55,286 nt of DNA from a virus, in the IMG/VR virus record IMGVR_UViG_3300032316_000894, positions 1 through 55,286 of that record; one strand, 5' to 3'. The notes under the pieces were generated by a model. The model ran no database searches and was not told the origin of the DNA. It saw nothing but the letters and a program-made list of their open reading frames with translations. The position numbers and the translations under genes were made by a program. Position 1 is the first letter of the stretch. Each line of letters starts with the position of its first letter. This document shows, in pieces, positions 2,012 through 39,510 of the stretch.

Positions 2012-2650
2012 TTCGATAATAGATTTTAATTTAATTAAAGTATTTCTATCGAGAGAATTAACAACGTCTTTAGTGTTTTCAATTACAAGTTTATCTAAAA
2101 TAGATTCACTGTATATTGTTTCTTGTTTGTCATCTACGTTGTATACATGATTATATGAAGAATCAGATTCCTCAAAGTTCTCATATTCTGTATCACGTAT
2201 ATCACGACCATCCCACATATCCCAATTACCATCATTTCTTTGTTGTGATGCGGAATCTGTAACCCAATCTTTATCGTAAGAATCAAAATATGATGCTTTA
2301 TATTCGGTATAACTACAACTACCCCATGTGGTGTAATGTAAGTCATAAGTTTTTGCGACAGGGATTACTAATTGCTCAATTAGAGAAGAGTTTCTCATTT
2401 GTTCACGATTATTAGCAAAAAGTTCCGCAATTATATTCTCATTAATCTCTAAAAATTTCGAAAAGAATTCAACATCTTCTTGAGTTACTGCCAAACTAAA
2501 ATAATTTGCAACCTCTGTTAGAATCTTCTCTGCACTATCAAAATCAGTGTCATAAGGGTTTCCAATAGGAAAATCCTCATCAACTAATTTTTCGGCGATG
2601 AATACCAATTGTTTTTTTGGTAGTTTTGAAAATTGACTTTGTATTGCCAT
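1991..2650 (-). CDS. Unknown acidic protein
   Basis: 219 residues, strongly acidic in the second half, with many Asp, Glu, Ser, Tyr and Trp residues at about 125-175, and a leucine-rich helix at the end. No known motif. The start at 2650 is supported by a TATTTAT motif ending 4 nt upstream. An upstream ATG five codons earlier would lie in that motif. Function unknown; the promoter class suggests late expression. Confidence 0.65.
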   Translation of the reverse strand: MAIQSQFSKLPKKQLVFIAEKLVDEDFPIGNPYDTDFDSAEKILTEVANYFSLAVTQEDVEFFSKFLEINENIIAELFANNREQMRNSSLIEQLVIPVAKTYDLHYTTWGSCSYTEYKASYFDSYDKDWVTDSASQQRNDGNWDMWDGRDIRDTEYENFEESDSSYNHVYNVDDKQETIYSESILDKLVIENTKDVVNSLDRNTLIKLKSIIESRLRLL

Positions 2651-2654
2651 ATTA

Positions 2655-2661
2655 ATAAATA
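2655..2661 (-). promoter_or_regulatory. TATTTAT late-type promoter motif
   Basis: On the minus strand TATTTAT is followed by 4 nt and the ATG at 2650. Confidence 0.6.
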
Positions 2662-2667
2662 CCAAAA

Positions 2668-2690
2668 AAGGTGGATTTCTCCACCTTTTC
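2668..2690 (-). terminator. Intrinsic terminator (both directions possible)
   Basis: GGTGGA/TCCACC stem followed by a T run on the minus strand, directly after the stop of the gene at 2690-3094 and before the promoter of the next gene. Confidence 0.7.
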
Positions 2691-3094
2691 TATACTGTAT
2701 GTTTGATTTGTACTCTAACACAATTTTGAGGTAATCGATTAATGTGTCGATAGTTGTTAATGTACCCCATCATATTCGCACTACCAACCGCATTTGCGGA
2801 ATGAACTACTACGTCTACCACAGGTTGTCCATCTAACCATTGGTTAACTAACCATTTCACACAATCCATTCCAGTTTTTTCTAAAATGTTATCGTAGTTT
2901 AAAGTGTAGTTGTGGTAAACATTTTTATGCCATTCCGCCATTGCAGTATCTCCTAAATCGTGGTCTAATGAGATTAGCTCAATGTTTTCCAATCCAATGT
3001 CTTGAATTTTAGATACAAATTGTTCGTAGTCTCTTACTATAGTCCAATCTTTATCAACAGGAGTTCTTACATCATCTAAATAAATTTTAGTCAT
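2690..3094 (-). CDS. Cyclic-phosphate-processing receiver-domain (cREC) protein
   Basis: 134 residues covering one domain. Seen: IYLDDVRTP at the N-terminus, SLDHDLG at about residues 42-48, an HSAN motif at about 98-101 and VGSANMMGYINNY near the end. This ordered set is that of the cREC family, a receiver-like domain described from comparative genomics as acting with RNA-repair systems that handle cyclic phosphates at broken RNA ends. Other RNA-repair candidates (ligase and kinase at 18792-20528) lie elsewhere in the window. Its start overlaps the stop of the upstream gene by 8 nt, so it is translated as part of the 2690-4527 operon. Confidence 0.75.
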   Translation of the reverse strand: MTKIYLDDVRTPVDKDWTIVRDYEQFVSKIQDIGLENIELISLDHDLGDTAMAEWHKNVYHNYTLNYDNILEKTGMDCVKWLVNQWLDGQPVVDVVVHSANAVGSANMMGYINNYRHINRLPQNCVRVQIKHTV

Positions 3095-3395
3095 TTTTTT
3101 CGTTCTTTAAGTAGTTAACAATTTCTTGTATTTTGTTGGCATCTGAAGGGTTTACCATAAACTCATCCCAAGCGCCATATTTTGTTTTATATCCAAAGAT
3201 ATACTTTATTCCATAAAGAACTCTTTTCCAAAAAGAGTTATATGTTATTAAATGTGGATGAATATAAACCATTGGAATTTTTTGTCCGTCTGGAAATTCA
3301 TCTTCACTGTAATAAATTAAATATTGATGCTCATCTGAGTTACATTCACAGATTAAGACTTCTTTTGTTTCAAATGCTATTTTTTTCATATTCAT
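3087..3395 (-). CDS. Conserved-type small phage protein, unknown function
   Basis: 102 residues. It contains a Trp/Tyr/Phe-rich central segment (FWKRVLYGIKYIFGYKTKYG) followed by AWDEFMV, a pattern I associate with short hypothetical proteins of large phages. No catalytic motif. The N-terminus reads MNMKK, so the true start may be 3395 or 3389. It overlaps both neighbours slightly, as expected for a tightly packed operon. Confidence 0.65.
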   Translation of the reverse strand: MNMKKIAFETKEVLICECNSDEHQYLIYYSEDEFPDGQKIPMVYIHPHLITYNSFWKRVLYGIKYIFGYKTKYGAWDEFMVNPSDANKIQEIVNYLKNEKND

Positions 3396-3708
3396 GAGGA
3401 TTTATTTTTCGTTCATACCCATCAGGGTCATAATCATATTCTGCGCAAGGCCATTCTCTCCCATTATCGTCGATAGATGTCCAAATACTACCATCTACAA
3501 TCCATTTCCAATGAACACCTTCTTGACCTTCAGGTACTTCAGGATTATCTAACGGGGGATGATAGGTATTAACATCAATATGTCGATAATTACAGTCACA
3601 CCCACGATGAATACATTCATCACAAAAGTATGGGCTACTACCTGAAGAATATCCTGGCATGTAGCACCATACTGCAACTTTCCCACAATCACACAACTCT
3701 TTAAGCAT
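3370..3708 (-). CDS. Small Cys-rich, probably zinc-binding protein
   Basis: 112 residues. The first 45 carry a run of cysteines (CDCG, a lone Cys, CDEC, GCDC) that could form one or two zinc sites. The rest is rich in Asp, Pro, Trp and Tyr, including WKWIVDGSIWTSIDDNGREW. The start at 3708 overlaps the stop of the phosphoesterase gene by 8 nt; longer in-frame starts would run deep into that gene. No enzymatic function can be assigned. Confidence 0.65.
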   Translation of the reverse strand: MLKELCDCGKVAVWCYMPGYSSGSSPYFCDECIHRGCDCNYRHIDVNTYHPPLDNPEVPEGQEGVHWKWIVDGSIWTSIDDNGREWPCAEYDYDPDGYERKINPHEYEKNSI

Positions 3709-4375
3709 AAACCACTTCCTTAGTCTCGATGTTGAAATCAACAACGATAGGTTTGTGTGCGTGTTCGTATCTTTCATCAAGAACTGAGGCATTTAAAAAC
3801 TCAACACCTTCAATACTTTTTTGACCGTAAGCTCCGTGGATATGACCACATACGTGAATCTTTGGTTTAACATCAAAAACTCTTCTATATAGTTCCTCAC
3901 ATCCAACATGTCCTCCATGAGGAGCATAATCTAATAATCCGTAAACAGGACCATGAGTTATTAGGATATCAGTGTTACCAGGGATTTTAGACCACTTCTG
4001 GGCTAGTTTCTCTCCTCTTGGTAGGTTGAATGCCCAATCGTAAAATTCAGGTTGCCATGGACTACCGTAGAACTTCACACCGTCAATGGTAACTTCACTA
4101 TCTTGAAGATAGATAACTCCCATATCTTTAAATTCTTGGTCGATTTCGAATCCATGCTCGAAACCAAAATCATGGTTACCAGCAATAAAGATTTTATGTT
4201 TGAAATCAGTGCGAGCAAACCAATTCAAGAAATTCTGGATTTCGTGTTGTTTACCCATACTTGTAATATCACCAGCATGAACCAATACGTCTCCACTACC
4301 CAATATGTTACCCATCCCCTTACTTGTAAGGTGGTTGTGTTTGTTGTGCGTGTCGCTGATGAATGTTATTTTCAT
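3701..4375 (-). CDS. Calcineurin-like metallophosphoesterase
   Basis: 224 residues, about the usual length of a small phosphoesterase. All five metal-binding motifs are visible in order: ISDTHNKH (motif I), HAGDITSMG (II), AGNHDFG (III), ILITHGP (IV) and CGHIHGAYG (V). Such enzymes hydrolyse phosphomono- or diesters with two metal ions. It is followed by small genes overlapping by a few bases, and preceded by a small membrane protein whose stop overlaps this start (ATGA). Substrate unknown; nucleotide or RNA-end phosphates are plausible given the nearby cREC gene. Confidence 0.88.
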   Translation of the reverse strand: MKITFISDTHNKHNHLTSKGMGNILGSGDVLVHAGDITSMGKQHEIQNFLNWFARTDFKHKIFIAGNHDFGFEHGFEIDQEFKDMGVIYLQDSEVTIDGVKFYGSPWQPEFYDWAFNLPRGEKLAQKWSKIPGNTDILITHGPVYGLLDYAPHGGHVGCEELYRRVFDVKPKIHVCGHIHGAYGQKSIEGVEFLNASVLDERYEHAHKPIVVDFNIETKEVVYA

Positions 4376-4527
4376 AATATATTGTCTTTATCTTCTTCGT
4401 CAAAATCCCCAAATAAATCGTGTCCTTTATAATCAGGATGATTTTCTTTCATGTAGTCAATTCCTCGAACCCAAAAGTACGAAATAATTGAAACTACAAC
4501 GAACATTAATACATAAACTTTCCACAT
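4372..4527 (-). CDS. Small single-pass membrane protein
   Basis: 51 residues starting MWKVYVLMFVVVSIISYFW: one N-terminal membrane helix, then a soluble tail that turns strongly acidic (DFDEEDKD). Its TGA stop overlaps the ATG of the phosphoesterase gene, a translational-coupling arrangement. Nothing else occupies this stretch. Function unknown. Confidence 0.6.
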   Translation of the reverse strand: MWKVYVLMFVVVSIISYFWVRGIDYMKENHPDYKGHDLFGDFDEEDKDNIL

Positions 4528-4541
4528 AATTTTTTAATTTA

Positions 4542-5177
4542 TTAATCCCACCATCTTTCGATGTTTTCTTCCATTATTTTGAACAACAATTTTCTCGCTC
4601 TGTCATGATTAATGTGTGAAATATTCATGGCAATAACTTGTTTATCCTCTTTACGTCCTTCTCTCCCGAAGACACCTTCACCATTTAATACCCTCTTATA
4701 TATTAGAGGGTACTTTTTAAAATAATCATCAAAATTTTCTTCAAGTAATTTAGACTCCCAAGAGCTATAACCTTCTTTTCCTGGTACATCTTCAAACCAA
4801 TGTTTTGTTTTATGATAATCTGAGTACTCTGAGCTATAAAAATCATCTTGAATAAGTTTCATTAATTTGACACATGTCATCATAACTTCAGCATCTCTTT
4901 CAGCACGTAAATGAATACCCCTACCTCCAATATATTTTGATTGAGCTTTGAGTTTATGCATCATAATCTCAAAGATGTAGTGAGAGTCCCAATTTCTGTC
5001 TTTCCAAATAATTGGTAACCAATACCAAATATTTCTTATTCCTGTACGAACTTCTTTATGTAGATACCTACCCTCATGATTCCACCATAATGGAATAAAT
5101 TCTAATTTTCGTATAATCCAAGGTTTTTTAGACCTCTCATCTGCCCACTCGTCAAATATGTCTTTCTCTGGTTCCAT
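4542..5177 (-). CDS. Conserved-type phage protein of unknown function
   Basis: 211 residues, rich in Trp, Tyr, His and charged residues with alternating helices (for example WWNHEGRYLHKEVRTGIRNIW). The sequence resembles proteins that recur in large phages without assigned function. No signal peptide, membrane segment or nucleotide-binding motif. A TATATTTG promoter lies 18 nt upstream, so it probably opens the operon that runs to 2690. Confidence 0.65.
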   Translation of the reverse strand: MEPEKDIFDEWADERSKKPWIIRKLEFIPLWWNHEGRYLHKEVRTGIRNIWYWLPIIWKDRNWDSHYIFEIMMHKLKAQSKYIGGRGIHLRAERDAEVMMTCVKLMKLIQDDFYSSEYSDYHKTKHWFEDVPGKEGYSSWESKLLEENFDDYFKKYPLIYKRVLNGEGVFGREGRKEDKQVIAMNISHINHDRARKLLFKIMEENIERWWD

Positions 5178-5195
5178 TTTTTCTAAATATTTCTA

Positions 5196-5203
5196 CAAAT
5201 ATA
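5196..5203 (-). promoter_or_regulatory. TATATTTG host-type promoter
   Basis: Minus-strand TATATTTG upstream of the start at 5177. Confidence 0.55.
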
Positions 5204-5211
5204 GTAAAAAA

Positions 5212-5244
5212 ATAAGACCCGACAAAATAAATTTCGCGGGTCTT
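5212..5244 (-). terminator. Intrinsic terminator
   Basis: AAGACCCG/CGGGTCTT stem followed by ATTTTTTT on the minus strand; separates the 5335-5962 genes from the promoter at 5196. Confidence 0.7.
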
Positions 5245-5334
5245 TTGGAAAGGGATATATGAGAACACTCCTTAAGGAGCGATGTGTACAAATAAATATG
5301 AAAAATATTTAAAAAAGTCCACTTTTCAATAGCG

Positions 5335-5742
5335 TTAGAATGAATTTTTTACTCTATCTAATAATTTTTCATCAAAAGCAACACCATGCCTTTCTTTAAA
5401 GTGTCTCAAAAGAGTTTTAATAGAATCTTGTCTACCAACTTTTTGTAATAATAAATAAGCGCCTAAGTCAGCGTCCATCTCCTCATCATCATTTCTTGGA
5501 CCGTCATGACCCAATATAATATGAGAGACTTCATGAGCTTCAATAAATTTAAGAACATCAGTTCCAAAGTTATCAATAAACTGTTCTCCGTCTATTATAA
5601 TCAAGTTTTTACCTGGTACCATAAATCCATACCCATACTCATCAAATAATGGTTTAAGTTCCCCATATTGAGGATGGTCGTCAAGAATGACCGCGATTTG
5701 TACCTCTGGTATGAATTCGCTATTAAATATTAATGGTTCCAA
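5335..5742 (-). CDS. Zincin-type metallopeptidase (HEVSH), ImmA/IrrE-like size
   Basis: 135 residues. The zinc motif is HEVSH inside IEAHEVSHIILGH at about residue 70, followed some 15 residues later by EEMDADLGAY, where an acidic residue can supply the third ligand. This arrangement and size resemble ImmA/IrrE-type peptidases, which cleave repressors or other regulators. The first 60 residues are beta-rich. It overlaps the upstream small gene by 20 nt. Host target unknown. Confidence 0.72.
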   Translation of the reverse strand: MEPLIFNSEFIPEVQIAVILDDHPQYGELKPLFDEYGYGFMVPGKNLIIIDGEQFIDNFGTDVLKFIEAHEVSHIILGHDGPRNDDEEMDADLGAYLLLQKVGRQDSIKTLLRHFKERHGVAFDEKLLDRVKNSF

Positions 5743-6931: not shown

Positions 6932-8050
6932 TTATTCTAATTTATTTTTTTTATCATCTGAGGTAGCGTATTTGATACCCATAATCGTACCTACGATGGA
7001 GAACGCGTTTGTGAGTAAGACACTGAACATATTACTCCACGTTGAGCCAATTATTTGTGTATCTTTATTCGACAGTATTGCAAATGAGTACATTATAGTG
7101 GTAATAAATCCAACACTCATAATTACAAACAGAGCTGATTTAACAATAGTTCCTATCAATTGGTTTTGACTTTTTTTGATTGTAGCATCTAAGTCCTCTA
7201 ACGCTGCGTTTTTCTCGAGCTCGATTGACATACGAAGTTTGTTTGAATTATCTAATTCTGTTTGTAAATTTTTTGAAAGTTCATCTATTTTATTCTTACT
7301 AACAACAGTCTCGGTAATATCATTAGCAATTTTCATTACTTTTTTACAAATACCGTCGTTATTAAGTATTGGATTGTAGGTTGCTTTCAAAAAGATTGGA
7401 GAACCATCTAGTTTTCTTCTTTCGAATTCCCCTTCGAAAAACTTTCCACTACTCAGTTTTACCCAAAATTCTTTATATTCCTCCGATTTTGAATACTCAT
7501 GACTTACAAAAATACTATGGTGTTTACCAATAATTCTTTTTTCATCTTTTTCATCGAACCCCATTACCTTTAAAAAAATAGAATTTGCTCCAAGTATGTA
7601 ACCGTCACAATCAAAATAGATGATAGCGTTACTTCTACCCACGGCCCCGATTTCATTTTTAGCTATTACAGTTGTAGTAATATCGGTAGCAATTTTCATT
7701 ATCTTTGTAACTATACCATCTTCATTAATTATTGGGTTATAGGTTGCTTGAAGGTAAATAATACTACCATCTGATTTTATTCTTTCGAACTCTCCCTCGT
7801 AGAACTTTCCCTCTGATAGTTTTTTCCAAAACTCCTTGTAATCATCCGACTTTACAACTTCAGGTGAAACAAAAAGACTATGGTGCTGGCCTATAACTTT
7901 TTCATGTTCATTCTCCGAATATCCCATGGTCTTTAAGAAAATGGGATTAACCCCTAAAATAAAACCATTTAGGTCAAAATATATTATTGCATTACTTCTA
8001 TTAATTGCCTCAATTCTACTTAATAGCTCTTCCTTTGATAAATTTTTCAC
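6932..8050 (-). CDS. Double-PAS domain membrane protein
   Basis: 372 residues starting at a GTG. Two tandem PAS domains of about 120 residues (roughly 15-130 and 137-255) are near copies of each other: each has SNAIIYFD, a FLK-GY/GF segment, HHS-FVS, EFWKKLSEGKF or its variant, FERxK-DGS and ATYNPI, and ends in KIMKIATDITxT or a variant. This is the methyl-accepting/energy-taxis type of PAS. A coiled coil follows (about 255-295), then two hydrophobic segments (about 303-327 and 338-360) and a charged end. There is no kinase, GGDEF or methyl-accepting output domain. PAS sensors are unusual in phages. It may sense redox or a ligand and act by interfering with a host receptor, or anchor a partner. 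Confidence 0.8.
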   Translation of the reverse strand: MKNLSKEELLSRIEAINRSNAIIYFDLNGFILGVNPIFLKTMGYSENEHEKVIGQHHSLFVSPEVVKSDDYKEFWKKLSEGKFYEGEFERIKSDGSIIYLQATYNPIINEDGIVTKIMKIATDITTTVIAKNEIGAVGRSNAIIYFDCDGYILGANSIFLKVMGFDEKDEKRIIGKHHSIFVSHEYSKSEEYKEFWVKLSSGKFFEGEFERRKLDGSPIFLKATYNPILNNDGICKKVMKIANDITETVVSKNKIDELSKNLQTELDNSNKLRMSIELEKNAALEDLDATIKKSQNQLIGTIVKSALFVIMSVGFITTIMYSFAILSNKDTQIIGSTWSNMFSVLLTNAFSIVGTIMGIKYATSDDKKNKLE

Positions 8051-9059: not shown

Positions 9060-10151
9060 ATGAGGCTCCTAACCGAAATAGAAAGAATACAAAGTATAAT
9101 GGGTGTTATTAAAGAAGATGAGGAAACTAATCTTCAAATGAACATTAATTTAGGTAAAACAGTTGAAATTTTAAAGTACTTGAGACTTTATAATAAATCC
9201 ATTGAAAAAATGTTAATGGAAATTACTGTCTTATCTAAAAATCAAATTATTGATTTCGGACTATTAGAAAGAGGGTTAAGAAAAATCTTGTTGAAAAAAG
9301 GTGATAAGAAAAAAAATGTAGTTGACTATCTTGGAAAGATTATAAATTCTTTAAAATACAGAGAACGTAGCGGTTATGGTACAGAACCTGAAAGCGAAGA
9401 TTACGAATTTGAAGAACCATCAATAATACCAAAGAAAGTTTTTAGAAAAGAACTTTATGAAATGCAAGTTGAGTTATTAAAACTCCAAGAATGGTTAAAG
9501 AAAACGGGTAAGACGGTTATAATTGTATTTGAAGGTAGAGATTCTGCGGGTAAAGGGTCAACGATTAAAAAGTTTGTTGAAAATTTAAACCCAAGATATT
9601 ATAATGTTATTGCATTAGGAGTTCCTACTCCTGAAGATAGAAAAGATTGGTGGGGAAGATATAAAAGCCAAATTAAATCAGGTATGATTAACTTATTTGA
9701 TAGAAGTTGGTATAATAGAGGTTTAATTGAACCAGTAATGGGATATGGGTCTGTAGAAGAATATGAAGACTTTATGGAAAATGTTGAAGATTTTGAAAAC
9801 GATTTAGTTAAAGAAGGAGATTATTTATTTAAACTATGGTTTTCAATCGATAAAGACACTCAAAAAAGAAGATTTGATATTAGACAACAATCACCTTTAA
9901 AATATTGGAAATACTCACCTAATGATTCTAAAATGCAAGACCTTTGGGATAGATTTACCGAATTTAAAGAAAAATTATTTGATAAAACTTCATCTGTTAA
10001 TAACCCATGGGTTATTGTTGATGCTGAAGATAAAAGAGTTTCAGGGTTAAATGCTATTAGATATGTTTTGCAAAACATACCGTATGAAGGTAAAGACGAA
10101 AAAGTACTAGATAAAGATTACCCTGAAGCGTTAGCAATATTAAAGCCATAA
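9060..10151 (+). CDS. ppk2: Polyphosphate kinase 2 family enzyme with capsid-targeting-type N-terminus
   Basis: 363 residues. The C-terminal 240 residues are a complete PPK2 domain: Walker A EGRDSAGKGST at 158-168, TPEDRKDWWGRY, the Walker B-like LFDRSWYNRG at 212-221, and the lid arginines in TQKRRFDIR. PPK2 enzymes move phosphate between polyphosphate and nucleoside phosphates. The first 120 residues are extra: they begin LLTEIERIQSIMGVIKED, which resembles the (L/I)xE-ending N-termini of other proteins here, and continue with a helical region. Inference: a packaged enzyme that could recharge nucleotides from host polyphosphate at the start of infection. The next gene begins 4 nt after the stop. 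Confidence 0.88.
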   Translation: MRLLTEIERIQSIMGVIKEDEETNLQMNINLGKTVEILKYLRLYNKSIEKMLMEITVLSKNQIIDFGLLERGLRKILLKKGDKKKNVVDYLGKIINSLKYRERSGYGTEPESEDYEFEEPSIIPKKVFRKELYEMQVELLKLQEWLKKTGKTVIIVFEGRDSAGKGSTIKKFVENLNPRYYNVIALGVPTPEDRKDWWGRYKSQIKSGMINLFDRSWYNRGLIEPVMGYGSVEEYEDFMENVEDFENDLVKEGDYLFKLWFSIDKDTQKRRFDIRQQSPLKYWKYSPNDSKMQDLWDRFTEFKEKLFDKTSSVNNPWVIVDAEDKRVSGLNAIRYVLQNIPYEGKDEKVLDKDYPEALAILKP

Positions 10152-10155: not shown

Positions 10156-10698
10156 ATGAGTTTAAAACAATTGATAAAAGAAACTTTGGAAAACCATTTA
10201 AACAAATCTTTAATATTAAAAGAGAATGTTGAAGTTTCCGATGCGTTACAATATCACATTGAAAATGATATGTCATTAACTAATAATGTTTTTAAAGTTT
10301 ACTCTGAGGGTTACTTTAATTTAGTTAATGAAGTTAGAGACCTTTATAATGAGGGTAAAATCGATTTAAATTACAAAGACAAATTAATGGTTGAATCTGA
10401 TTTGGGTAAAAAAGTTAAAATTGGTAAACAATACATCTATTTGGACGCACCTTATGTTTACGAGACTGAAGAAGATACTTTAATGGAATCCAAAACTCCA
10501 AGAGGACATAAGAAATTTGCAGTATATACTAAGAGTAAAACAGGAGGACTTAAGAAAGTAACTTTTGGTAACTCTAAATTAGTGGTTAAAGAAAGTAGTA
10601 ATTGTCTTCAAAAAACAGACAGAACAACCGCAGGATATTGGTCTTGTAATATTGGAAGATACTCTAAACAATTAGGTCTTTCTTCTTCAAATTCTTAA
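10156..10698 (+). CDS. Unknown protein with capsid-targeting-type N-terminus and GHKKFxVY domain
   Basis: 180 residues. The N-terminus MSLKQLIKETL leads to LILKEN at about residue 20, an (L/I)xE site. The C-terminal 70 residues hold a compact motif series: RGHKKFAVYTKSKTGGLKKV, TFGNS, then KTDRTTAGYWSC. I associate this short domain with hypothetical proteins in the structural regions of other large phages, but cannot name a function. It sits between PPK2 and another small gene with spacings of 2-4 nt, so all three are probably one transcript. Confidence 0.65.
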   Translation: MSLKQLIKETLENHLNKSLILKENVEVSDALQYHIENDMSLTNNVFKVYSEGYFNLVNEVRDLYNEGKIDLNYKDKLMVESDLGKKVKIGKQYIYLDAPYVYETEEDTLMESKTPRGHKKFAVYTKSKTGGLKKVTFGNSKLVVKESSNCLQKTDRTTAGYWSCNIGRYSKQLGLSSSNS

Positions 10699-10700
10699 CA

Positions 10701-10994
10701 ATGGATTCAGGTAAAATTGAAAAATACTTACAAACTTATATTGATGATGTTATTGAACCTAAAATTAATGATGAATTAGTTGGTGAAGATGACGAACCAA
10801 TAAAGATTACGGTTCACAAAGTACGATATGGTGAGGCAAACCCTAATAGAGTTGCCTTTTTCTTAGACATAGACCCTGATTGGTCTAAAGGTAGTTTTAT
10901 AAATGTTGTTAATTCAGACATTTCAAGTTTTTTCAAAATGTTAGATGTTAACAAAGACCTTCGTATTTATTGGAACAAAAGACCTTTATTTTAA
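10701..10994 (+). CDS. Small unknown protein
   Basis: 97 residues, alpha/beta with a central KITVHKVRYGEANPNRVAFF strand region and aromatic C-terminus. No known motif. Starts 2 nt after the preceding stop. Confidence 0.6.
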   Translation: MDSGKIEKYLQTYIDDVIEPKINDELVGEDDEPIKITVHKVRYGEANPNRVAFFLDIDPDWSKGSFINVVNSDISSFFKMLDVNKDLRIYWNKRPLF

Positions 10995-12207: not shown

Positions 12208-12238
12208 AAAAAAAAACATCCCGAATTTACGGGATGTT
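12208..12238 (-). terminator. Intrinsic terminator behind the tRNA-like RNA
   Basis: ACATCCCG/CGGGATGT stem followed by a run of T on the minus strand, 12 nt beyond the 3' end of the tRNA-like RNA. Confidence 0.75.
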
Positions 12239-12250
12239 AATAACTTGAGG

Positions 12251-12420
12251 CTGTAGAGGATGGATTCGAACCACCACGAGGAGATTCAATTGATAACACA
12301 ACGATTGCAAGCTGGTGGTCTACCCCATATTATCAATCTATTTCTTGGTCCTCACCCCCGAGACAGGAGGGCTTGTATGCCACGGCCAGCATTACCTAAA
12401 CCTATTCCAACACTCTACAG
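12251..12420 (-). ncRNA. Long RNA with tRNA-like ends (unassigned)
   Basis: The minus strand starts with TGTAGAG (12419-12413) and ends with its complement CTCTACA (12258-12252), giving a 7-8 bp acceptor-like stem. A perfect T-arm precedes the 3' strand: GGTGG, loop TTCGAAT, CCATC. Between them lie about 120 nt instead of the usual 45, with an 8-bp stem ATTGATAA/TTATCAAT. A D-loop-like AATAGGTTTAGG follows the acceptor, but no convincing D-stem or anticodon arm was found. It lies 5 nt after a CDS and before a terminator. It could be a tRNA with an insertion, a decayed tRNA pair, or a reduced tmRNA-like RNA. Confidence 0.6.
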
Positions 12421-30794: not shown

Positions 30795-31439
30795 TTAAAG
30801 TCCCAATATGTCATCAACAATTTCTTGGACACTTAAAGTATTCCATGGTCTTGGGTGTTGATAAGACCAAAATGTTTTCCAATATCCGTACCAAATAACT
30901 CCTTCTTTACGAGGGTCAATAGTTCTCCAATCAGTACTTTGTTTTGGAAATCTCCCAATGTTATAAGTTTTATAATAATCAATTCCTCCTGTTTCATAAT
31001 AAGTTAGATACTTCTTATTAATTTCATCAAATTGAGAATGTAACACTACCTTACATCCATGAACACGTTGATACTCATCTACTCTCTGTGACCATAATTT
31101 GGCTTCGTCGATATTATCGGTAACTAAGTTAAATAAGACCATCTTACCGTAATCATTATATCTGTGAGTGAATATTCTTTTCATCCCATAGTCAGGAATG
31201 TACTTGTGAACAGAAATTTCAAAATCACAATAAAATTCAATTCCACACTCAAACTTATCTTTCCAATCTATACCCCCTCCATTAGTTACTTTGTAAGATT
31301 CGATACTAACTGATTGGTCTTCACCCTTCTTATATTCACGTAATTCAACGTAATATAACGGGTCAGGACCTGTAATTTTTAGTTGCGGGTACGGATTAAA
31401 ATTTAGTAATAACGTTTCTTGGTTCAGGGTAATATACAT
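30795..31439 (-). CDS. Unknown protein next to carbamoyltransferases
   Basis: 214 residues, rich in Tyr, Trp and Asp, alpha/beta, without signal or membrane segment. Includes FSLV-type strands and a final Trp/His/Pro segment (WKTFWSYQHPRPWNTL). Its start overlaps the carbamoyltransferase stop by 44 nt, suggesting co-expression. It might belong to glycan or natural-product-like modification, but no family is recognised. Confidence 0.6.
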   Translation of the reverse strand: MYITLNQETLLLNFNPYPQLKITGPDPLYYVELREYKKGEDQSVSIESYKVTNGGGIDWKDKFECGIEFYCDFEISVHKYIPDYGMKRIFTHRYNDYGKMVLFNLVTDNIDEAKLWSQRVDEYQRVHGCKVVLHSQFDEINKKYLTYYETGGIDYYKTYNIGRFPKQSTDWRTIDPRKEGVIWYGYWKTFWSYQHPRPWNTLSVQEIVDDILGL

Positions 31440-33012
31440 AATCTTCTATTATTAGTTTATCTATAACCCCTTTACGTAAAGTATTAAACGCTTGTGTAGG
31501 GTTTTCAATAATCGGTTCGTTATGAGTGTTAAATGACGTATTTAATAAGACAGGGATTCCTGATATCTTATAGTATTCGTTCAATATAGTCCAAAACTTT
31601 TTGTTTTTTGATTTTACGACTACTTGTGGTCTGGCACTTTTGTCTGATTTTTGAATAACAGCAGGTATTTTATTAATCCATTCTTCTTTGGTGTTATAAC
31701 ACAATGTCATAAACTCTGCGGTATATTTTGATTTTGATGGAGTAAATAATTCATCGAAATGTTCTTCTAATACTATCGGAGCGAATGGCATAGTGTCATG
31801 TCTTTTCAATCTTTTGTTCAATAATTGATGGGTGTCTATGTCTGTAGGTCTTACTAATATACTTCTGGCACCTAATGCTCTTGGGCCATGTTCGGACCCG
31901 TTTTGGAACCATCCAACAATTAAACCATTATTAATTTCTTCCGCAATTTTAGAAGGTATATAAGGTTCCCTAACAAATCTAAATCTCTTAGAAGTTTCAA
32001 ATATGTCATCATTAGAATATCTCATTCCAAAAAACATATTATCAAACTTAAATGGTTTAGTTATTTCTCCAAGTTCAACCGATTTGTATATACAGGAACC
32101 CAATGCAAGTCCCTCATCTCCCATAGGAGGATAAACATACATTTCATCCAACCATTCCAACTCATTAATCTTTTGGTTTAATTTAACATTGGCAAATAAT
32201 CCGCCAGCAAAACATAAGTTCTTATAGTCGGGGTATAATTTGTGTAAGTCATCCAAAAATTTTAAAAACAAATCTTCGGTTAATTTTTGTAAGTTAAATG
32301 AGAAAATCTCTCTTTGGTGTGGTGTGTCCAATAGCCCTTTGAGTTTCATCATGTCCACAACAAATTGAGTTTTACTGTTATTAGATGATGGATAAAATCT
32401 TAAGTTTTCATAGTCGATACAAGACTTCAATTCATTGTAAATTCTTTCATCGTAATGACCGTTGGCAGCCATACCCATAAGTTTACCCTCATCCTTACAC
32501 ATCTTCCAAACTCCCACACCAAAAATATCGTAACCCATAATTGAAGATGTACTGAATCCCCAAACGTGAGAAAGACTACCATATGAAGACATTGGAAAAC
32601 TATGTAAGAGGGTCATTTTACCCTCATCACATAGAAATATTTTCATAACACTGGTATCACCTCCACCATCATAAGTGATTGTCATGGTTTTACCTTCCAT
32701 ACCACTTGTGTAGTACGCTCCATAGGCGTGTGCGGTGTGATGACTTACAGTTTCGTAATGATTGTTTGTTACTTTTCGGGCAAACCCATCAGGGGTTGGT
32801 AATGCAAACACATTATAGTCTACGTCTGTCATTTTTAACCCTGTGTATTTTTGAATTGAATCTAAAGATAAATCGGCGTTTACATCGTAATTATCTCCAG
32901 CCTTTAATCGGGTTATTCGTTCTTCTTCGATTACGGATACCACTTTTCCGTCTACCATTAATGCAACGGTAGCACTGTGGGAACCAGTAAAACATCCATA
33001 AATTGAACTCAT
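31396..33012 (-). CDS. Carbamoyltransferase, NodU/CmcH/TobZ family (copy A)
   Basis: 538 residues, the usual length. The N-terminal Kae1-like domain shows CFTGSHSATVALM, EEERITRLK, SHHTAHAYGAYY and TITYDGGGDTS, and the C-terminal domain shows GPRALGARSILVRPT, KRHDTMPFAPIVL and LNTSFNTHNEPIIENP. These enzymes make carbamoyl-adenylate from carbamoyl phosphate and ATP and carbamoylate a hydroxyl, often on a sugar. One nucleotide separates it from copy B. Target unknown: glycan, DNA base or small molecule. Confidence 0.9.
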   Translation of the reverse strand: MSSIYGCFTGSHSATVALMVDGKVVSVIEEERITRLKAGDNYDVNADLSLDSIQKYTGLKMTDVDYNVFALPTPDGFARKVTNNHYETVSHHTAHAYGAYYTSGMEGKTMTITYDGGGDTSVMKIFLCDEGKMTLLHSFPMSSYGSLSHVWGFSTSSIMGYDIFGVGVWKMCKDEGKLMGMAANGHYDERIYNELKSCIDYENLRFYPSSNNSKTQFVVDMMKLKGLLDTPHQREIFSFNLQKLTEDLFLKFLDDLHKLYPDYKNLCFAGGLFANVKLNQKINELEWLDEMYVYPPMGDEGLALGSCIYKSVELGEITKPFKFDNMFFGMRYSNDDIFETSKRFRFVREPYIPSKIAEEINNGLIVGWFQNGSEHGPRALGARSILVRPTDIDTHQLLNKRLKRHDTMPFAPIVLEEHFDELFTPSKSKYTAEFMTLCYNTKEEWINKIPAVIQKSDKSARPQVVVKSKNKKFWTILNEYYKISGIPVLLNTSFNTHNEPIIENPTQAFNTLRKGVIDKLIIEDYVYYPEPRNVITKF

Positions 33013-33013
33013 A

Positions 33014-34681
33014 TTAACCTCTTGTAATTACAATATTATTAAGTACTAAGATATCAAGATTGCAACTTAGAAAGGTTCCAATTGCATCCATTGGAGTTTC
33101 AACAATAGGTTCGTGAGGTCCGTTAAAACTCGTATTCAATAAAACAGGTACTCCTGTTTTTTCATGAAATTTAGAAATCAACGAATGGAACCTTGGATTA
33201 TTCTCTGCCGTAACAGATTGATGTCTTGATGAATTATCAATGTGGGTGATTGCAGGTACTTTATTTCTCCACTCTTCTTTAACGGTTGTTGTTACCAACA
33301 TGTATGGGGAATAAACAGAGCTTTCAAACACATCTCCTTGATGTTCAAATAAAACCGCAGGGGCGAAAGGTCTATACCATTCTCTGCGTTTAATATCACT
33401 ATTAATATGACCTGTCATCCAAGAGTTAATTGGTGAGGCAATAATTGAACGATTTCCTAAAGCTCTTGGGCCAATTTCTGACCCTCCTTGGAACCATCCA
33501 ATAACCCTATTTTGACTTAATGAAAAACTTACGTTTTCAACTAAATCATCAAAATTTTGATATTCGGTGTAAACTAATGTAGGATGTTCGTTAAGTGCTG
33601 CAAAAACTTCATTTTTAGAATACTCTCTACCAAAATAAGGACTTAACATTTCTGTTTCCTCAATATCTATTAGTTTTTGGTAGGCAAACCAAGCACAACC
33701 TAATGGTATTCCACTATCATCACTTGGAGGTAAAAAGTAACAGTTTTCAAAAAGACCTGAATTCAAAATTTTCTCATTTGAATTACAGTTTAAGAAAGAC
33801 CCACCAACAACACATATGTTTTTAGAATCTGTAAATTTTTTGGCCATATTTGCCAAGATTAAAGACGCTCTTTCTTGTTCTCGTTGGTAAATCCCAGCAA
33901 CACAAGCTCTTGAATAGAAATCAGATTTCCAAGAAACTTTTGGGTATATGTTATTATTAGAAATGTAAATATCATCTTCCTTTTCCTCAACAAAAAACGG
34001 TGCCTCATTTACAATATCTTCATTAGCATAAGAAGCTAACCCCATTAATTTTCCTGCGGGCCATGTTTGAGTGTTTGGTTCGTAGATTAATTGAAGAGAG
34101 CCTGTTGAGTACATGGTACCCAACGAAACTCCTTCATCTGTATTAATAGGAACGGGATATTTTATCCATTTTTTATAAAGTTCTTTATGTTCATTTTTAT
34201 TAAAATGATATATAGAAATCCCTTCAGCCCAATCAGAATCAGTGTCTAAATTATATTCTTTTGGGTCATACCAAAGGTGTGTTTTATTTTTGAAAGTAAC
34301 GATACTTCCTGAGGCATCTGCAACAATTACCGCGGCGTCCTCTAACCCTGAGCTAAAGAATGCCGAATATGCGTGTGCCAAATGATGAGGAATGAAATTT
34401 AATATTTCTACCTTAAGGTCATGATATTTTGAAAAAAATTGATAACCTACAGTATCTTCAATTTCGGTTGTACTATACACATAGTAATCAATATCTCTAT
34501 GCGTAATGCTAAGAGCATTTAAACAATAGTTAATTGATTCAAATGGTATTAGACCACCTTGATATGCCCCATCATGTTTTATTCGGGTAAGTCTTTCTTG
34601 GGTTATACCAACAACAACTTTACCGTTCTCAATGATGACAGCACCTTTGTCGTGTCCAACTGAAAATCCTAATACTCTCAT
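33014..34681 (-). CDS. Carbamoyltransferase, NodU/CmcH/TobZ family (copy B)
   Basis: 555 residues from the ATG at 34681 (MRVLGFSVGHDKGAVII). Same domain order as copy A: TQERLTRIKHDG, HHLAHAYSAFFSS, VADASGS, GPRALGNRSIIASP, KRREWYRPFAPAVL, LNTSFNGPHEPIVETP. The two copies are clearly diverged, so they may act on different acceptors or form a hetero-oligomer. The start was moved inward because the segment before it overlaps the stop of the preceding gene and lacks homology to the family. Confidence 0.9.
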   Translation of the reverse strand: MRVLGFSVGHDKGAVIIENGKVVVGITQERLTRIKHDGAYQGGLIPFESINYCLNALSITHRDIDYYVYSTTEIEDTVGYQFFSKYHDLKVEILNFIPHHLAHAYSAFFSSGLEDAAVIVADASGSIVTFKNKTHLWYDPKEYNLDTDSDWAEGISIYHFNKNEHKELYKKWIKYPVPINTDEGVSLGTMYSTGSLQLIYEPNTQTWPAGKLMGLASYANEDIVNEAPFFVEEKEDDIYISNNNIYPKVSWKSDFYSRACVAGIYQREQERASLILANMAKKFTDSKNICVVGGSFLNCNSNEKILNSGLFENCYFLPPSDDSGIPLGCAWFAYQKLIDIEETEMLSPYFGREYSKNEVFAALNEHPTLVYTEYQNFDDLVENVSFSLSQNRVIGWFQGGSEIGPRALGNRSIIASPINSWMTGHINSDIKRREWYRPFAPAVLFEHQGDVFESSVYSPYMLVTTTVKEEWRNKVPAITHIDNSSRHQSVTAENNPRFHSLISKFHEKTGVPVLLNTSFNGPHEPIVETPMDAIGTFLSCNLDILVLNNIVITRG

Positions 34682-34700
34682 TTGTATCTTTTTAAAAAAA

Positions 34701-35018
34701 TTATGCCTCAGTTTCAGGCTCTGCATTTGGTTCTATAACTTCAGGACCATTATTATTTGAATCCATGTTTACAGCAGTTCCTTCTTCTAAGTCTTCTTCA
34801 CATTTATAAATGTGAACTTGGTTATTGTATTCAAATACAATAACTTTTTTAACTTCAGGTCCTAAATTAATGTCTCCTACAACATCAACAACAATACCTT
34901 CACCGTTCTTTAAGATTAAACCTAAAGCTCTTGCGAAGATTAATGATGCGTTAATTAGGTCTTGAGGTTTTTTTCCTTCACCTTCTTGTTCTGGGTTTGT
35001 GTAATTCGCTTCTTGCAT
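34701..35018 (-). CDS. Small unknown acidic protein
   Basis: 105 residues; central strands around GIVVDVVGDINLGPEVKKVI and an acidic, low-complexity tail rich in Glu, Asn and Pro. No known motif. Confidence 0.6.
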   Translation of the reverse strand: MQEANYTNPEQEGEGKKPQDLINASLIFARALGLILKNGEGIVVDVVGDINLGPEVKKVIVFEYNNQVHIYKCEEDLEEGTAVNMDSNNNGPEVIEPNAEPETEA

Positions 35019-36879: not shown

Positions 36880-36978
36880 ATGAAAACTATGAACACAAAT
36901 ACAAATTTAGACACACCTACAACTCCTAATGGGGATGCGGGCACTATGTTTGTACGTTCAGAATCGATTATTTGGTAA
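36880..36978 (+). CDS. Leader peptide 1 (32 aa) before the Pro-Asn-Asp-Gly-Thr-Ala tRNA group
   Basis: The 32 codons include 7 Thr, 4 Asn, 2 Asp, 2 Pro, 2 Gly and 1 Ala: 18 residues whose tRNAs are exactly the six encoded after it. They are concentrated in codons 3-22 (TMNTNTNLDTP, then TTPNGDAGT). The tail reads MFVRSESIIW. In it GTTCAG (36956-36961) is complementary to CTGAAC in the terminator's 5' arm (37005-37010) and ends 14 nt before the stop. This is the layout of an attenuation leader. No protein family is expected for it. Confidence 0.65.
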   Translation: MKTMNTNTNLDTPTTPNGDAGTMFVRSESIIW

Positions 36979-37030
36979 TAATATTACCGCCAATTATCTA
37001 AACCCTGAACTAATACTTCAGGGTTTTTTT
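36956..37030 (+). promoter_or_regulatory. Attenuator 1: antiterminator pairing and terminator
   Basis: GTTCAG at 36956-36961 can pair with CTGAAC at 37005-37010 (antiterminator). Otherwise CCCTGAA (37003-37009) pairs with TTCAGGG (37017-37023) before seven T (terminator). The tRNA-Pro gene starts 5 nt beyond the T run, so there is no room for another promoter and the group depends on read-through. Confidence 0.65.
37003..37030 (+). terminator. Terminator 1
   Basis: CCCTGAA/TTCAGGG stem, 7-nt loop, then T7. Confidence 0.8.
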
Positions 37031-37035
37031 ATGTA

Positions 37036-37109
37036 CGGGATGTAGCGTAGTCAGGTATCGCGCCACGTTTGGGACGTGGAGGCCGTTGGTTCGAATCCAG
37101 CTATCCCGA
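37036..37109 (+). tRNA. tRNA-Pro(TGG)
   Basis: Acceptor CGGGATG/TATCCCG, anticodon stem CCACG/CGTGG with loop TTTGGGA, T-arm GTTGG-TTCGAAT-CCAGC. CCA is not encoded. First tRNA of group 1. Confidence 0.93.
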
Positions 37110-37149
37110 CAAAAGTTTCCTTTATTGGAAATTTTGATTATTATTATAT

Positions 37150-37221
37150 TGCTCTATCGTATAAGGGTTATTACGGTTGACTGTTAATCAATTTATCCAA
37201 GTTCGAATCTTGGTGGAGCAG
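37150..37221 (+). tRNA. tRNA-Asn(GTT)
   Basis: Acceptor TGCTCTA/TGGAGCA, anticodon loop CTGTTAA, T-arm CCAAG-TTCGAAT-CTTGG, discriminator G. Confidence 0.92.
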
Positions 37222-37301
37222 CTGCGGTGGGTGGAAAAATTCCAATGTTGTAGTATCGTGGACGGAGAAATCCTGAAGCATAAACAGACAAAAAGAAAAA
37301 A

Positions 37302-37790
37302 ATGAAGTTAAAAACATTCTTATTGACTGGGATGTTATTGTTAGGAACAATGGCAACCAAAGCACAAGAGACGCAAGTACAGATTGATTCAAATACTAAA
37401 GAAAGTATTACAAAAGAAAGTTTGTATGAGCAGATAATGAAGTACGGGATTAAGTTCCCTGATGTGGTATTCGCACAAGCGGTATTAGAGTCAGGTCAAT
37501 TTACCTCCAAGTTGTTCAAATCGGCAAACAACTTATTCGGTATGAAAATACCAACAAGAAGGGAGTCATCAGCAAATGGTAAAACCAAAAGTGGATACTC
37601 AAGTTATGAAGATTGGAACTTTAGTGTATACGATTACTCTTTATGGCAAAATTTTATGTTAAGAAACAAAAGTGATTTAACAAAAAAAGAGTATCTTGCA
37701 CTCCTTGGTAAGGTTTATGCAGAAGACAAAAGATATGTCAGTAGTTTAAAACGAGTAATCGGTGAACACCAACATATTTTAACACAGTAA
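37302..37790 (+). CDS. Secreted N-acetylglucosaminidase (GH73/FlgJ-like)
   Basis: 162 residues. Signal peptide MKLKTFLLTGMLLLGTMATKA, then a glucosaminidase domain: FPDVVFAQAVLESGQF with the catalytic Glu, NNLFGMK, GYSSYEDWNFSVYDY and a C-terminal YAEDKRYVSSL. These enzymes cut peptidoglycan glycan strands. Because it has its own export signal it could work from the periplasm without a holin, or reshape the wall during infection. It sits inside the first tRNA group, between tRNA-Asn and tRNA-Asp. The stretch 37222-37301 before it shows no gene and no clear motif. Confidence 0.85.
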   Translation: MKLKTFLLTGMLLLGTMATKAQETQVQIDSNTKESITKESLYEQIMKYGIKFPDVVFAQAVLESGQFTSKLFKSANNLFGMKIPTRRESSANGKTKSGYSSYEDWNFSVYDYSLWQNFMLRNKSDLTKKEYLALLGKVYAEDKRYVSSLKRVIGEHQHILTQ

Positions 37791-37819
37791 AAAGTTTGGG
37801 GTGAAACTCCCCATAATTT

Positions 37820-37892
37820 GGTCCCGTGGTTGAATGGTTACAATTCCACCCTGTCACGGTGCGAGATACGGGTTCGAATCCCGTCGGGACCG
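37820..37892 (+). tRNA. tRNA-Asp(GTC)
   Basis: Acceptor GGTCCCG/CGGGACC, anticodon loop CTGTCAC, T-arm ACGGG-TTCGAAT-CCCGT, discriminator G. The outermost anticodon-stem pair is a C-C mismatch. Confidence 0.9.
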
Positions 37893-37953
37893 CAAAGAGG
37901 AGTATATGTGTAGTAACCTCAGGTGTGATATCCGCCACTACACTCCATTTTAA

Positions 37954-38029
37954 GCGGTAGTAGCTCAGTTGGTAGAGCTCGTTCCTTCCAAGTACGAGGT
38001 CGCAGGTTCGAACCCTGTCTACCGCTCCA
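37954..38029 (+). tRNA. tRNA-Gly(TCC), CCA encoded
   Basis: Acceptor GCGGTAG/CTACCGC, D-stem GCTC/GAGC, anticodon loop CTTCCAA, T-arm GCAGG-TTCGAAC-CCTGT, discriminator T, then CCA (38027-38029). Confidence 0.92.
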
Positions 38030-38076
38030 AGGGTAGTGGGAACCCAAGAGTATGTGATGAGCATACACCCACAAAT

Positions 38077-38149
38077 GCCTCCATAGCTCAGTTGGTAGAG
38101 CAGCTGATTTGTAATCAGCAGGTCGTTGGTTCGAGTCCGACTGGAGGCT
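38077..38149 (+). tRNA. tRNA-Thr(TGT)
   Basis: Acceptor GCCTCCA/TGGAGGC, anticodon stem CTGAT/ATCAG with loop TTTGTAA, T-loop TTCGAGT. Confidence 0.94.
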
Positions 38150-38156
38150 CACATAA

Positions 38157-38228
38157 GGGGATTTAGCTGAGTTGGTTTAGCACCGCCCTTGCACGGCGGG
38201 GACAAGAGTTCGAGTCTCTTATTCTCCA
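38157..38228 (+). tRNA. tRNA-Ala(TGC)
   Basis: Anticodon stem CCGCC/GGCGG with loop CTTGCAC, T-arm AAGAG-TTCGAGT-CTCTT, acceptor GGGGATT/ATTCTCC with one mismatch, discriminator A. Last of group 1. Confidence 0.9.
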
Positions 38229-38242
38229 CAAACAAATAAACG

Positions 38243-38596
38243 ATGGCACATCCAAACTTACATGCAAAATCATCCGCCAAAAAGTTTGGTGGGAAACCTG
38301 AGGACTACATTCATTTACACGAATGGTTAGATGAAACCAAAGGATGGTTTGGGGATTCACTTCATAGAATGTTCAGACATCATAGTGAAGGAATCTTTGA
38401 AATGGAAAAACGATTTGGTACTGAATTCAAAAACAGTGACGGAGATACCGTTTACACAAGATATATCGGAGAACAACATATAAAAGAGGATTGTAATAAC
38501 TACATTCCGTCAGCCAAAGAATGGGTAAATAACATATCAACAAATCAACGACCTCAGTGGATGTTGAAAACAATGAAATTAGAATTCACTGATTGA
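38243..38596 (+). CDS. DUF6915-like protein
   Basis: 117 residues. MAHPNLHAKSSAKKFGGKPE, then a HEWLDETK segment, HRMFRHHSEGIFEMEK, NSDG and RYIGEQHIKED match a family of unknown function found in many bacteria (DUF6915). The many conserved His and Glu residues suggest a metal site. It begins 14 nt after tRNA-Ala and is therefore on the same transcript as tRNA group 1. Confidence 0.75.
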   Translation: MAHPNLHAKSSAKKFGGKPEDYIHLHEWLDETKGWFGDSLHRMFRHHSEGIFEMEKRFGTEFKNSDGDTVYTRYIGEQHIKEDCNNYIPSAKEWVNNISTNQRPQWMLKTMKLEFTD

Positions 38597-38603
38597 TATT
38601 TAT
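38597..38603 (+). promoter_or_regulatory. TATTTAT late-type promoter motif
   Basis: 4 nt before the ATG at 38608. Confidence 0.6.
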
Positions 38604-38607
38604 TATT

Positions 38608-39321
38608 ATGAAAGAACTTTTAACACCAGAAGAAAAACAATATTTAAGAAGAGTTGCAAATTACCTTGGTTCATTGGGAATGCAAGATGGTAATATTGAA
38701 ATTGACATAGATAACGGATGGACATTTAGTTATGATGATATTAATTGGGATTATGTGTCTCATTTTGCTAATAACTATAATGCGGATATTCCATCAGGAT
38801 TAATACCAATACTTCAAAAAATCATGAAATATTGTGATGATGAGGGGTTAATTAAAGAACATGACGATGATATTAATTATCAGAGATTAGAGTACGACAT
38901 TGATGTAAAGGCAAAACAAATTATCTTCTCTCATTGGTGGTCATATTACGATAGAGGTGATGGAAGTTCAATCGAATACGATTCTGAAGAAGATATTGAA
39001 AGATTTAATAGTTGGATGGAACTTTATTTTTCCGATGTCGAAATTCCTAATGATGGTATTTTAACTGTAACCTATAATGGGTCAGGAGATTCGGGTTATA
39101 TGGAAGACTCATTTGATGAAAACGGTAGCCAAGTTCCTGCAGGAATTGAGGACTGGTGTTACGGAGAATTATCAAGAAATTTTGGAGGATGGGAAATTAA
39201 TGAAGGGTCCGACGGTAACTTTATATTTGACTTCAACACAAAAATAGTTAAATTAAATCATACAGAGAACATTGAAGAAAACGCAAGTGATACTTACTTT
39301 GAGCAGAGCTTCGCAAATTAA
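38608..39321 (+). CDS. Unknown acidic protein with GSGDSG motif
   Basis: 237 residues. N-terminus MKELLTPEEKQYLRRVANYL, helical and somewhat like the packaged-type starts but without a clear (L/I)xE-Q site. The middle has a HWWSYYDRGDGSS segment. The C-terminal part has VTYNGSGDSGYMED, then WCYGELSRNFGGWEINEGSDG, a strand-turn pattern seen in uncharacterised bacterial domains. Function unknown. Start set by the promoter motif. Confidence 0.62.
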   Translation: MKELLTPEEKQYLRRVANYLGSLGMQDGNIEIDIDNGWTFSYDDINWDYVSHFANNYNADIPSGLIPILQKIMKYCDDEGLIKEHDDDINYQRLEYDIDVKAKQIIFSHWWSYYDRGDGSSIEYDSEEDIERFNSWMELYFSDVEIPNDGILTVTYNGSGDSGYMEDSFDENGSQVPAGIEDWCYGELSRNFGGWEINEGSDGNFIFDFNTKIVKLNHTENIEENASDTYFEQSFAN

Positions 39322-39325
39322 GACA

Positions 39326-39332
39326 TATTTAT
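39326..39332 (+). promoter_or_regulatory. TATTTAT promoter motif of leader 2
   Basis: 5 nt before the leader-peptide ATG at 39338. Confidence 0.55.
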
Positions 39333-39337
39333 AAAAC

Positions 39338-39406
39338 ATGAGAACAACATTATTACATACGTTATTACTTGATAGACAAGGTCTATTAAGAAGACTTATG
39401 CCGTAA
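39338..39406 (+). CDS. Leader peptide 2 (22 aa) before the Leu-Arg-Leu tRNA group
   Basis: Of 22 residues 8 are Leu (5 TTA, 2 CTT, 1 CTA) and 4 are Arg, all AGA. The tRNAs after it are Leu(TAA), Arg(TCT) and Leu(TAG), the readers of TTA, AGA and CTN. Runs such as TTLLHTLLLD and GLLRRLM resemble classical leucine-operon leaders. Three nucleotides after the stop, GTTCAG (39410-39415) is complementary to CTGAAC in the following terminator (39443-39448). Confidence 0.65.
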   Translation: MRTTLLHTLLLDRQGLLRRLMP

Positions 39407-39409
39407 TTT

Positions 39410-39470
39410 GTTCAGAGCCGTTCTATTTATAGATATTCAACCCTGAACCAAAAAAGTTCGGGGTTTTTTT
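39410..39470 (+). promoter_or_regulatory. Attenuator 2: antiterminator pairing and terminator
   Basis: GTTCAG (39410-39415) against CTGAAC (39443-39448) competes with the stem CCCTGAAC (39441-39448)/GTTCGGGG (39456-39463). A ribosome at the leader stop would cover GTTCAG and favour termination. A TATCTTTG promoter lies beyond this terminator, so the tRNAs behind also have their own start site. Confidence 0.6.
39441..39470 (+). terminator. Terminator 2
   Basis: CCCTGAAC/GTTCGGGG stem followed by T7. Confidence 0.8.
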
Positions 39471-39493
39471 ATGACTTTTTCAGAGATATTCAC

Positions 39494-39501
39494 TATCTTT
39501 G
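39494..39501 (+). promoter_or_regulatory. TATCTTTG host-type promoter for tRNA group 2
   Basis: Ends 9 nt before tRNA-Leu(TAA). Confidence 0.65.
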
Positions 39502-39510
39502 TAAAATAAC

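Follow-up and report, generated by a model that had tools for sequence, protein, structure and literature searches.

Aspartate identity in tRNA depends on five strong, evolutionarily conserved determinants (G73, G34, U35, C36, and C38) and on a minor one, G2-C71, and bacteria also conserve G1-C72 and G10 (PMC9976931). Among non-canonical tRNAs with long variable arms, the bacterial allo-tRNAs and selC* tRNA-Cys, some of which carry GUC, combine 8/4, 9/3, or 8-bp acceptors with variable arms of the ordinary kind, and selC* tRNA-Cys contains a T-stem bulge at 51a (PMC7609411). The phage tRNA-cluster RNAs GOLLD (RF02032) and ROOL contain symmetric kissing loops with switching palindromes (PMC12286853). 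Long phage RNAs with tRNA-like ends are also represented by tmRNA, which contains a tag reading frame. In plant RNA viruses, tRNA-like structures form genome 3′ ends that are charged with Val, His, or Tyr.

Here we describe a tRNA-like RNA encoded by IMG/VR virus record IMGVR_UViG_3300032316_000894 (the whole stretch analysed, 55,286 nt, is referred to as the window) that resembles each of these systems in part. With bacterial tRNA-Asp it shares the cloverleaf, G73, the GUC anticodon, C38, and G2-C71, but it has a giant variable arm, U1-A72, a variable position 10, an unfixed position 33, a pyrimidine at position 37, a 3-bp D-stem, D-loop inserts, and a T-stem that is bulged in 35 of 202 members and forms 5 contiguous bp in the other 167. 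Like allo-tRNAs and selC* tRNA-Cys, it is non-canonical and long in the variable arm, whereas its acceptor domain is 7/5, it is phage-borne, its variable arm reaches ~78 nt, and its loop appears unfit for decoding. The likeness to GOLLD and ROOL lies in the location within phage tRNA clusters and in symmetric kissing loops with switching palindromes, here predicted from sequence; the fold, however, is unrelated, the length is about 150–175 nt, the ends are those of a tRNA, and there is no Rfam match. Unlike tmRNA, it has a D-stem, a covarying anticodon arm, no tag reading frame, and no match to RF00023. Both it and the plant-virus structures are virus-encoded tRNA mimics with synthetase identity elements, but this one is an independent RNA gene of DNA phages and carries aspartate determinants. 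It appears to represent a previously unlisted, large, and apparently undescribed family of phage-encoded tRNA-like RNAs, and a search of the openly accessible journal literature turned up no account of an RNA of this kind.

The RNA lies on the minus strand, from 12420 to 12250, as read from the sequence and from homologues. Its elements are the following.

12250..12420, minus strand: whole tRNA-like RNA, 171 nt, position −1 to C74 (covariance model R1 and same-site homologues)
12413..12420, minus strand: acceptor stem 5′ strand, C−1 then UGUAGAG, pairing with 12251-12258
12408..12410, minus strand: D-stem 5′ strand UUG, partner CAA at 12375-12373
12376..12407, minus strand: D-loop, with an inserted segment of ~20 nt before the conserved GGCA (G18 G19) (alignment A1)
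12355..12371, minus strand: anticodon-type arm CCCUC-CUGUCUC-GGGGG, with GUC at 34-36, U37, and C38 (loop counts over 202 members)
12278..12353, minus strand: giant variable arm, consisting of V1, internal loop, V2, and apical domain (V1 and V2 covary)
12353-12349 with 12282-12278, minus strand: stem V1, GAGGA with UCCUC (covaries)
Between V1 and V2, minus strand: internal loop AAGAAAUAG/UGAAUC
12289..12337, minus strand: stem V2 AUUGAUAAU/GUUAUCAAU (12337-12329 with 12297-12289) and the apical domain that it closes
12314..12326, minus strand: near-invariant apical motif GGGGUAGACCACC (alignment; GGGUUGACCAC in the sister subfamily)
12303..12312, minus strand: palindromic tip, putative kissing-dimer site, GCUUGCAAUC in the window and GCUUGCAAGC in close relatives
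12259..12275, minus strand: T-arm GGUGG-UUCGAAU-CCAUC (read from the sequence; covariation alignment)
12251..12258, minus strand: acceptor stem 3′ strand CUCUACA and discriminator G73 (G73 in 201 of 202 members)
12215..12238, minus strand: intrinsic terminator, hairpin ACAUCCCG...CGGGAUGU followed by a U run (read directly)

The acceptor thus listed comprises 7 bp (12419-12413 with 12258-12252) plus C−1:G73, and the terminator lies ~12 nt beyond the 3′ end of the RNA. The acceptor stem, T-arm, internal stem, and terminator noted in an earlier sequence-only reading are all confirmed, and their strand is minus. Across the family the variable arm is mostly about 75–90 nt long and is built of two stacked stems, and comparison of members places a conserved GGNUNGACCAC motif and the palindromic tip within it. 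Roughly half of the 202 members contain a D-loop insert, which compact members lack. In part of the family (e.g., L006, L012, L019, and L037) a recurring hairpin insert of the GGUUGUCUCAGUUAUGACC type is found just before G18G19; close relatives do without it, a distribution that would suit a small element that moves or recombines.

Folded as a single sequence, the window copy does not outperform its shuffled versions (z −0.75), and the structural case therefore rests on homologues. A covariation test of 39 sequences against a 41-pair structure, with 500 shuffles and slid controls, gave a score of 0.513, compared with 0.183 in shuffles and at most 0.111 in slid controls; 0 of 500 shuffles reached 0.513. 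In this alignment 96.9% of cells are paired, 277 cells are changed on both sides (80 in shuffles), and 29 of the 41 pairs show compensatory change, including 5 of 8 in the acceptor stem, 5 of 5 in the anticodon-type arm (100% of cells paired), and, as change on both sides, 8 of 9 in stem V2. The D-stem switches among UUG/CAA, GUG/CAC, ACG/CGU, and GCG/CGC across members, with 99% of cells paired. RNAalifold independently recovered most of the structure and extended stem V1. The 73 divergent matches have 92.6% of cells paired and score 0.554 versus 0.176 in shuffles, figures that lean towards the structure, as this alignment was fitted to the model. Comparison of the aligned sequences demonstrates a cloverleaf with a 3-bp D-stem, an anticodon-type arm, a T-arm, G73, and a giant variable arm.

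These comparisons change how the locus is classified. The sequence-only reading saw no recognisable anticodon arm, and homologues reveal one of 5 bp and 7 nt at 12371-12355. Of the identities it offered, a tRNA with an internal insertion comes closest, in so far as the D-loop of the cloverleaf contains an inserted hairpin and the variable arm is greatly expanded. Two fused decayed tRNAs are contradicted by the single covarying fold kept in 202 sequences, and a reduced tmRNA by the D-stem and anticodon arm, the lack of a conserved tag frame, and a separate tmRNA at 51517-51913. An intron-bearing tRNA was rejected, as the anticodon-type arm is a contiguous 5 bp with an intact 7-nt loop in aligned members.

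Existing tools pass over the RNA. ARAGORN made no call at it in the window. Searches of the Rfam 15 families at gathering score, tRNA and tmRNA models included, gave no match at 12250-12420 or at the RNAs of L055, L048, L060, L175, and L370, and the window copy searched at E up to 10 gave weak chance matches only, mostly at the terminator. Three forms of the window's subfamily, used as BLAST queries against phage records, returned T-arm fragments and chance matches only, and four further queries returned LR756504.1 only, plus a T-arm fragment in one Streptomyces phage. The RNA was not found in isolated phages among the phage records searched. Pattern scans of viral contigs nevertheless recovered at least 202 distinct members, all from uncultured phages, often very large; counts over 202 refer to members among the matches listed. 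The window copy scores 177.9 bits with covariance model R1, whose seed includes the window sequence itself. At least two subfamilies are distinguished by the apex, GGGGUAGACCAC and GGGUUGACCAC. A scan for divergent forms yielded 111 stretches, most of them real members, and a divergent member was recovered at 133312-133456 of the 636-kb phage LR756504.1 (L175 5885-6029; 91 bits, E about 2e-23), a record that carries no annotation. The member in L370 is a minimal form without the apical domain, in which UUGUCUC and G73 are kept.

Other candidates were discarded. The scores of the pattern matches in L162 and L166 resemble those of plain tRNAs; the L162 match reads as tRNA-Leu. Members in which the second base of the apical AGACC loop is changed were also sought, and the search gave two false positives in coding DNA. 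The subfamily-1 pattern (the window's subfamily) had 15 matches in 84,980 GTDB species, none of which scored as a member. Bacteroidota-type promoters, sought as a clue to the host, were not in excess (2 matches versus 3.8 expected).

An IMG/VR search with the neighbouring 352-aa protein recovered 34 loci and supplied homologues in related phages: the same RNA lies beside the gene for this protein in 12 of them (L002, L003, L006-L009, L012-L015, L019, and L020). The same slot holds a plain tRNA-Ser(UGA) in L010, L011, L017, L018, and L021-L035, and neither in L004 and L016. Slot occupants differ among relatives, which indicates that the slot is exchangeable and that the long RNA did not arise by a recent insertion into a single tRNA. 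The sequence-only reading had named a plain tRNA with a recent insertion or deletion as an outcome that would refute it; some relatives do have the plain tRNA at the site, but the long form constitutes a conserved family in its own right. Members share the strand of the nearest tRNA and are usually found inside tRNA clusters; in 57 cases that tRNA lies no more than 400 nt away, and in 37 of these it is tRNA-Ser. In one survey of members, 135 of 135 contigs held a single copy. In L226, two divergent copies stand in tandem on the minus strand (3960-4108 and 4114-4272; 107.5 and 126.7 bits).

The loop consensus over the 202 members is N32 N33 G34 U35 C36 Y37 C38. GUC at 34-36 is present in 202 of 202, C38 in 198, and G73 in 201, while position 33 is U in 132, C in 53, A in 16, and G in 1, and position 37 is U in 183, C in 17, and A in 2 (a pyrimidine in 200 of 202). 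Most retrieval patterns contained GACCAC or related motifs, so that GACCAC invariance is partly imposed, and UGUCUC was part of the pattern for some divergent members; a loop-unconstrained subset was therefore counted apart. It consists of 187 members with GGGUWGACCAC, the motif of the scans that leave the loop free, and has GUC in 187 of 187 and C38 in 183. Among 61 clusters under 80% identity, GUC is present in 61, C38 in 59, and G73 in 61. The family therefore carries all five strong aspartate determinants, along with G2-C71. The further bacterial features are missing: the first pair is U1-A72 in 71 of 73 sequences and AU in 2 of 73 instead of G1-C72, and all four bases occur at position 10.

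U33 and a purine at 37 occur together in 0 of 202 members; among ~1000 ordinary tRNAs of the same contigs, U33 is found in 985 and purine 37 in 995. The absence of any member with this combination argues that the RNA is non-decoding. The tRNA-Asp loops of these contigs are mainly CUGUCAC or UUGUCAC, from which the tRNA-like RNA differs mainly at 37. We infer that the features read by AspRS are under selection and those needed by the ribosome are not. No phage AspRS-family gene was found in 20 contigs, so the host AspRS would be the partner; of FemAB, GatB, and LPG-synthase, as users of Asp-RNA, none was found in 20 contigs either.

Beyond GACCAC, at the tip of the variable arm, 187 of 202 members carry a perfect palindrome that is 6 nt or longer, and in 163 it reaches 8 nt or more, compared with 27% and 6%, respectively, in shuffles; the remaining 15 lack a palindrome of at least 6 nt. 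The window tip, GCUUGCAAUC, has one palindrome mismatch, and L002, L003, and L007 carry GCUUGCAAGC. There are 35 distinct palindromes with ten central tetramers (UGCA, CCGG, GGCC, GCGC, AGCU, CAUG, UCGA, CGCG, GUAC, and UUAA). The central nucleotides cannot pair inside one hairpin, and variation at the tip therefore amounts to intermolecular covariation. The same palindrome-switching argument has been made for the symmetric kissing loops of OLE and GOLLD dimers (PMC12286853), and the family likewise has a self-complementary loop that switches between palindromes. It probably forms homodimers through symmetric kissing of the palindromic tips.

On balance, the explanation we consider most probable is that of a non-decoding, probably dimeric tRNA-like RNA that is recognised, and perhaps charged, by host AspRS. 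In such a scheme, the RNA would be transcribed with neighbouring genes and matured like a tRNA, by RNase P, 3′ processing, and CCA addition; host AspRS would bind and perhaps charge it via G34, U35, C36, C38, and G73, while the anticodon-type loop would keep it off the ribosome. The variable arms would pair two copies into a dimer, whose two tRNA-like heads would suit the alpha-2 AspRS, and the charged or AspRS-bound dimer would withhold aspartate or AspRS from the ribosome for a phage purpose. Support decreases from non-decoding, through the homodimer and then tRNA-like maturation with AspRS recognition, to the charged or AspRS-bound dimer. The full version, in which the RNA made by many large phages dimerises with itself, is charged or bound by host AspRS, and cannot decode, serving as an aspartyl-RNA with a non-ribosomal use or as a device capturing the AspRS dimer, is a serious but tentative proposal, somewhat short of an even chance. 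U1-A72 and the variable position 10 count against AspRS, given the bacterial G1-C72 and G10. AspRS is a class II enzyme that approaches tRNA from the variable-loop side, and a large variable arm might clash. The lack of AspRS-family genes and of Asp-RNA users in the contigs searched, the mismatch in the window's palindrome, and the 15 members without a palindrome of at least 6 nt also weigh against the scheme.

G73, the long variable arm, and the frequent tRNA-Ser adjacency also fit SerRS. The RNA could thus be a serine-accepting tRNA-like molecule of the allo-tRNA or tRNA-Sec kind, recognised by SerRS through G73 and the long variable arm, with GUC incidental. The type II frame, the tRNA-Ser neighbours (37/57), and the tRNA-Ser(UGA) in the same slot of relatives are in keeping with this, as is the fact that allo-tRNAs are often GUC-bearing Ser acceptors (PMC7609411). 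The anticodon, however, plays no part in recognition by SerRS, yet within this loop conservation is strongest at GUC and C38, and positions 33 and 37 vary. The bacterial serine determinants C72 and C11-G24 are also absent (position 72 is A and the D-stem varies), and the acceptor domain is 7/5 rather than the 8/4 or 9/3 of Ser-accepting allo-tRNAs. We regard serine acceptance as unlikely.

A little less likely still is that GUC is kept to pair with the apical GAC, of its own or a partner molecule, in a purely structural RNA-only multimer like GOLLD or ROOL. The two triplets are complementary, neither varies in most members, the kissing tip is palindromic, and GOLLD co-occurs in 11 of 24 large contigs that carry the RNA. 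Such pairing leaves C38 and G73 unexplained, and position 37 (U or C) is independent of its would-be partner. Moreover, L370, although one lineage only, lacks the GAC domain and retains the loop and G73, which weakens intramolecular GUC:GAC kissing as the cause of GUC conservation.

The tRNA-Asp-like loop, the location in phage tRNA clusters, and the inability to decode would also suit a tRNA-Asp mimic that diverts a host RNase or toxin as a decoy, or serves as bait for another tRNA-binding defence or enzyme. No anticodon nuclease is known to need C38 plus G73, and we consider such a role very improbable. A decayed or recently interrupted tRNA, suggested by the slot shared with tRNA-Ser(UGA), is refuted by the covariation, in which 29 of 41 pairs show compensatory change; moreover, 202 members are intact.

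If AspRS recognition of a non-decoding RNA is correct, this would be the first DNA-virus tRNA-like RNA in which synthetase identity is detached from decoding, and would raise the question of why a phage keeps a host synthetase identity yet discards decoding. For an abundant unlisted RNA family in large uncultured phages, it makes the testable prediction of aspartylation without decoding and of dimers through the variable arm. The RNA would also give GOLLD a small, easily transcribed companion in phage tRNA clusters, one that is probably an RNA-only multimer. The covariance model can find and name genes missed by tRNA finders.

Other RNAs were observed in these phages. GOLLD (RF02032) occurs in the same tRNA clusters in L048, L052, L084, L094, L107, L108, L140, L172, and L226. 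Arrays of tRNA-ended RNAs are present in L055 (reverse strand, 2567-5692, 7 modules), L354 (2401-4830, 4 modules), and L201 (2036 and 10256-10920). Their modules have near-identical ends (AGUCAGG...CCUGACU), A73, a D-arm GGCGRAAU-GGUAGACGC, and a T-arm ACAGG-UUCGAAU-CCUGU, and differ in their interiors, mostly about 30–110 nt, as a variable cargo between tRNA ends in at least three phages. They may be relatives of the polycistronic irregular tRNAs noted in PMC7609411.

The window itself holds a nearly complete translation RNA set on a 55-kb fragment, with 23 tRNA genes for all 20 amino acids at 36973-44874 and the tmRNA at 51517-51913 on the minus strand. It also encodes a PAS-domain protein (6932-8050), a polyphosphate kinase 2 (9060-10151), and two adjacent Nol-like carbamoyltransferases (31396-34726).
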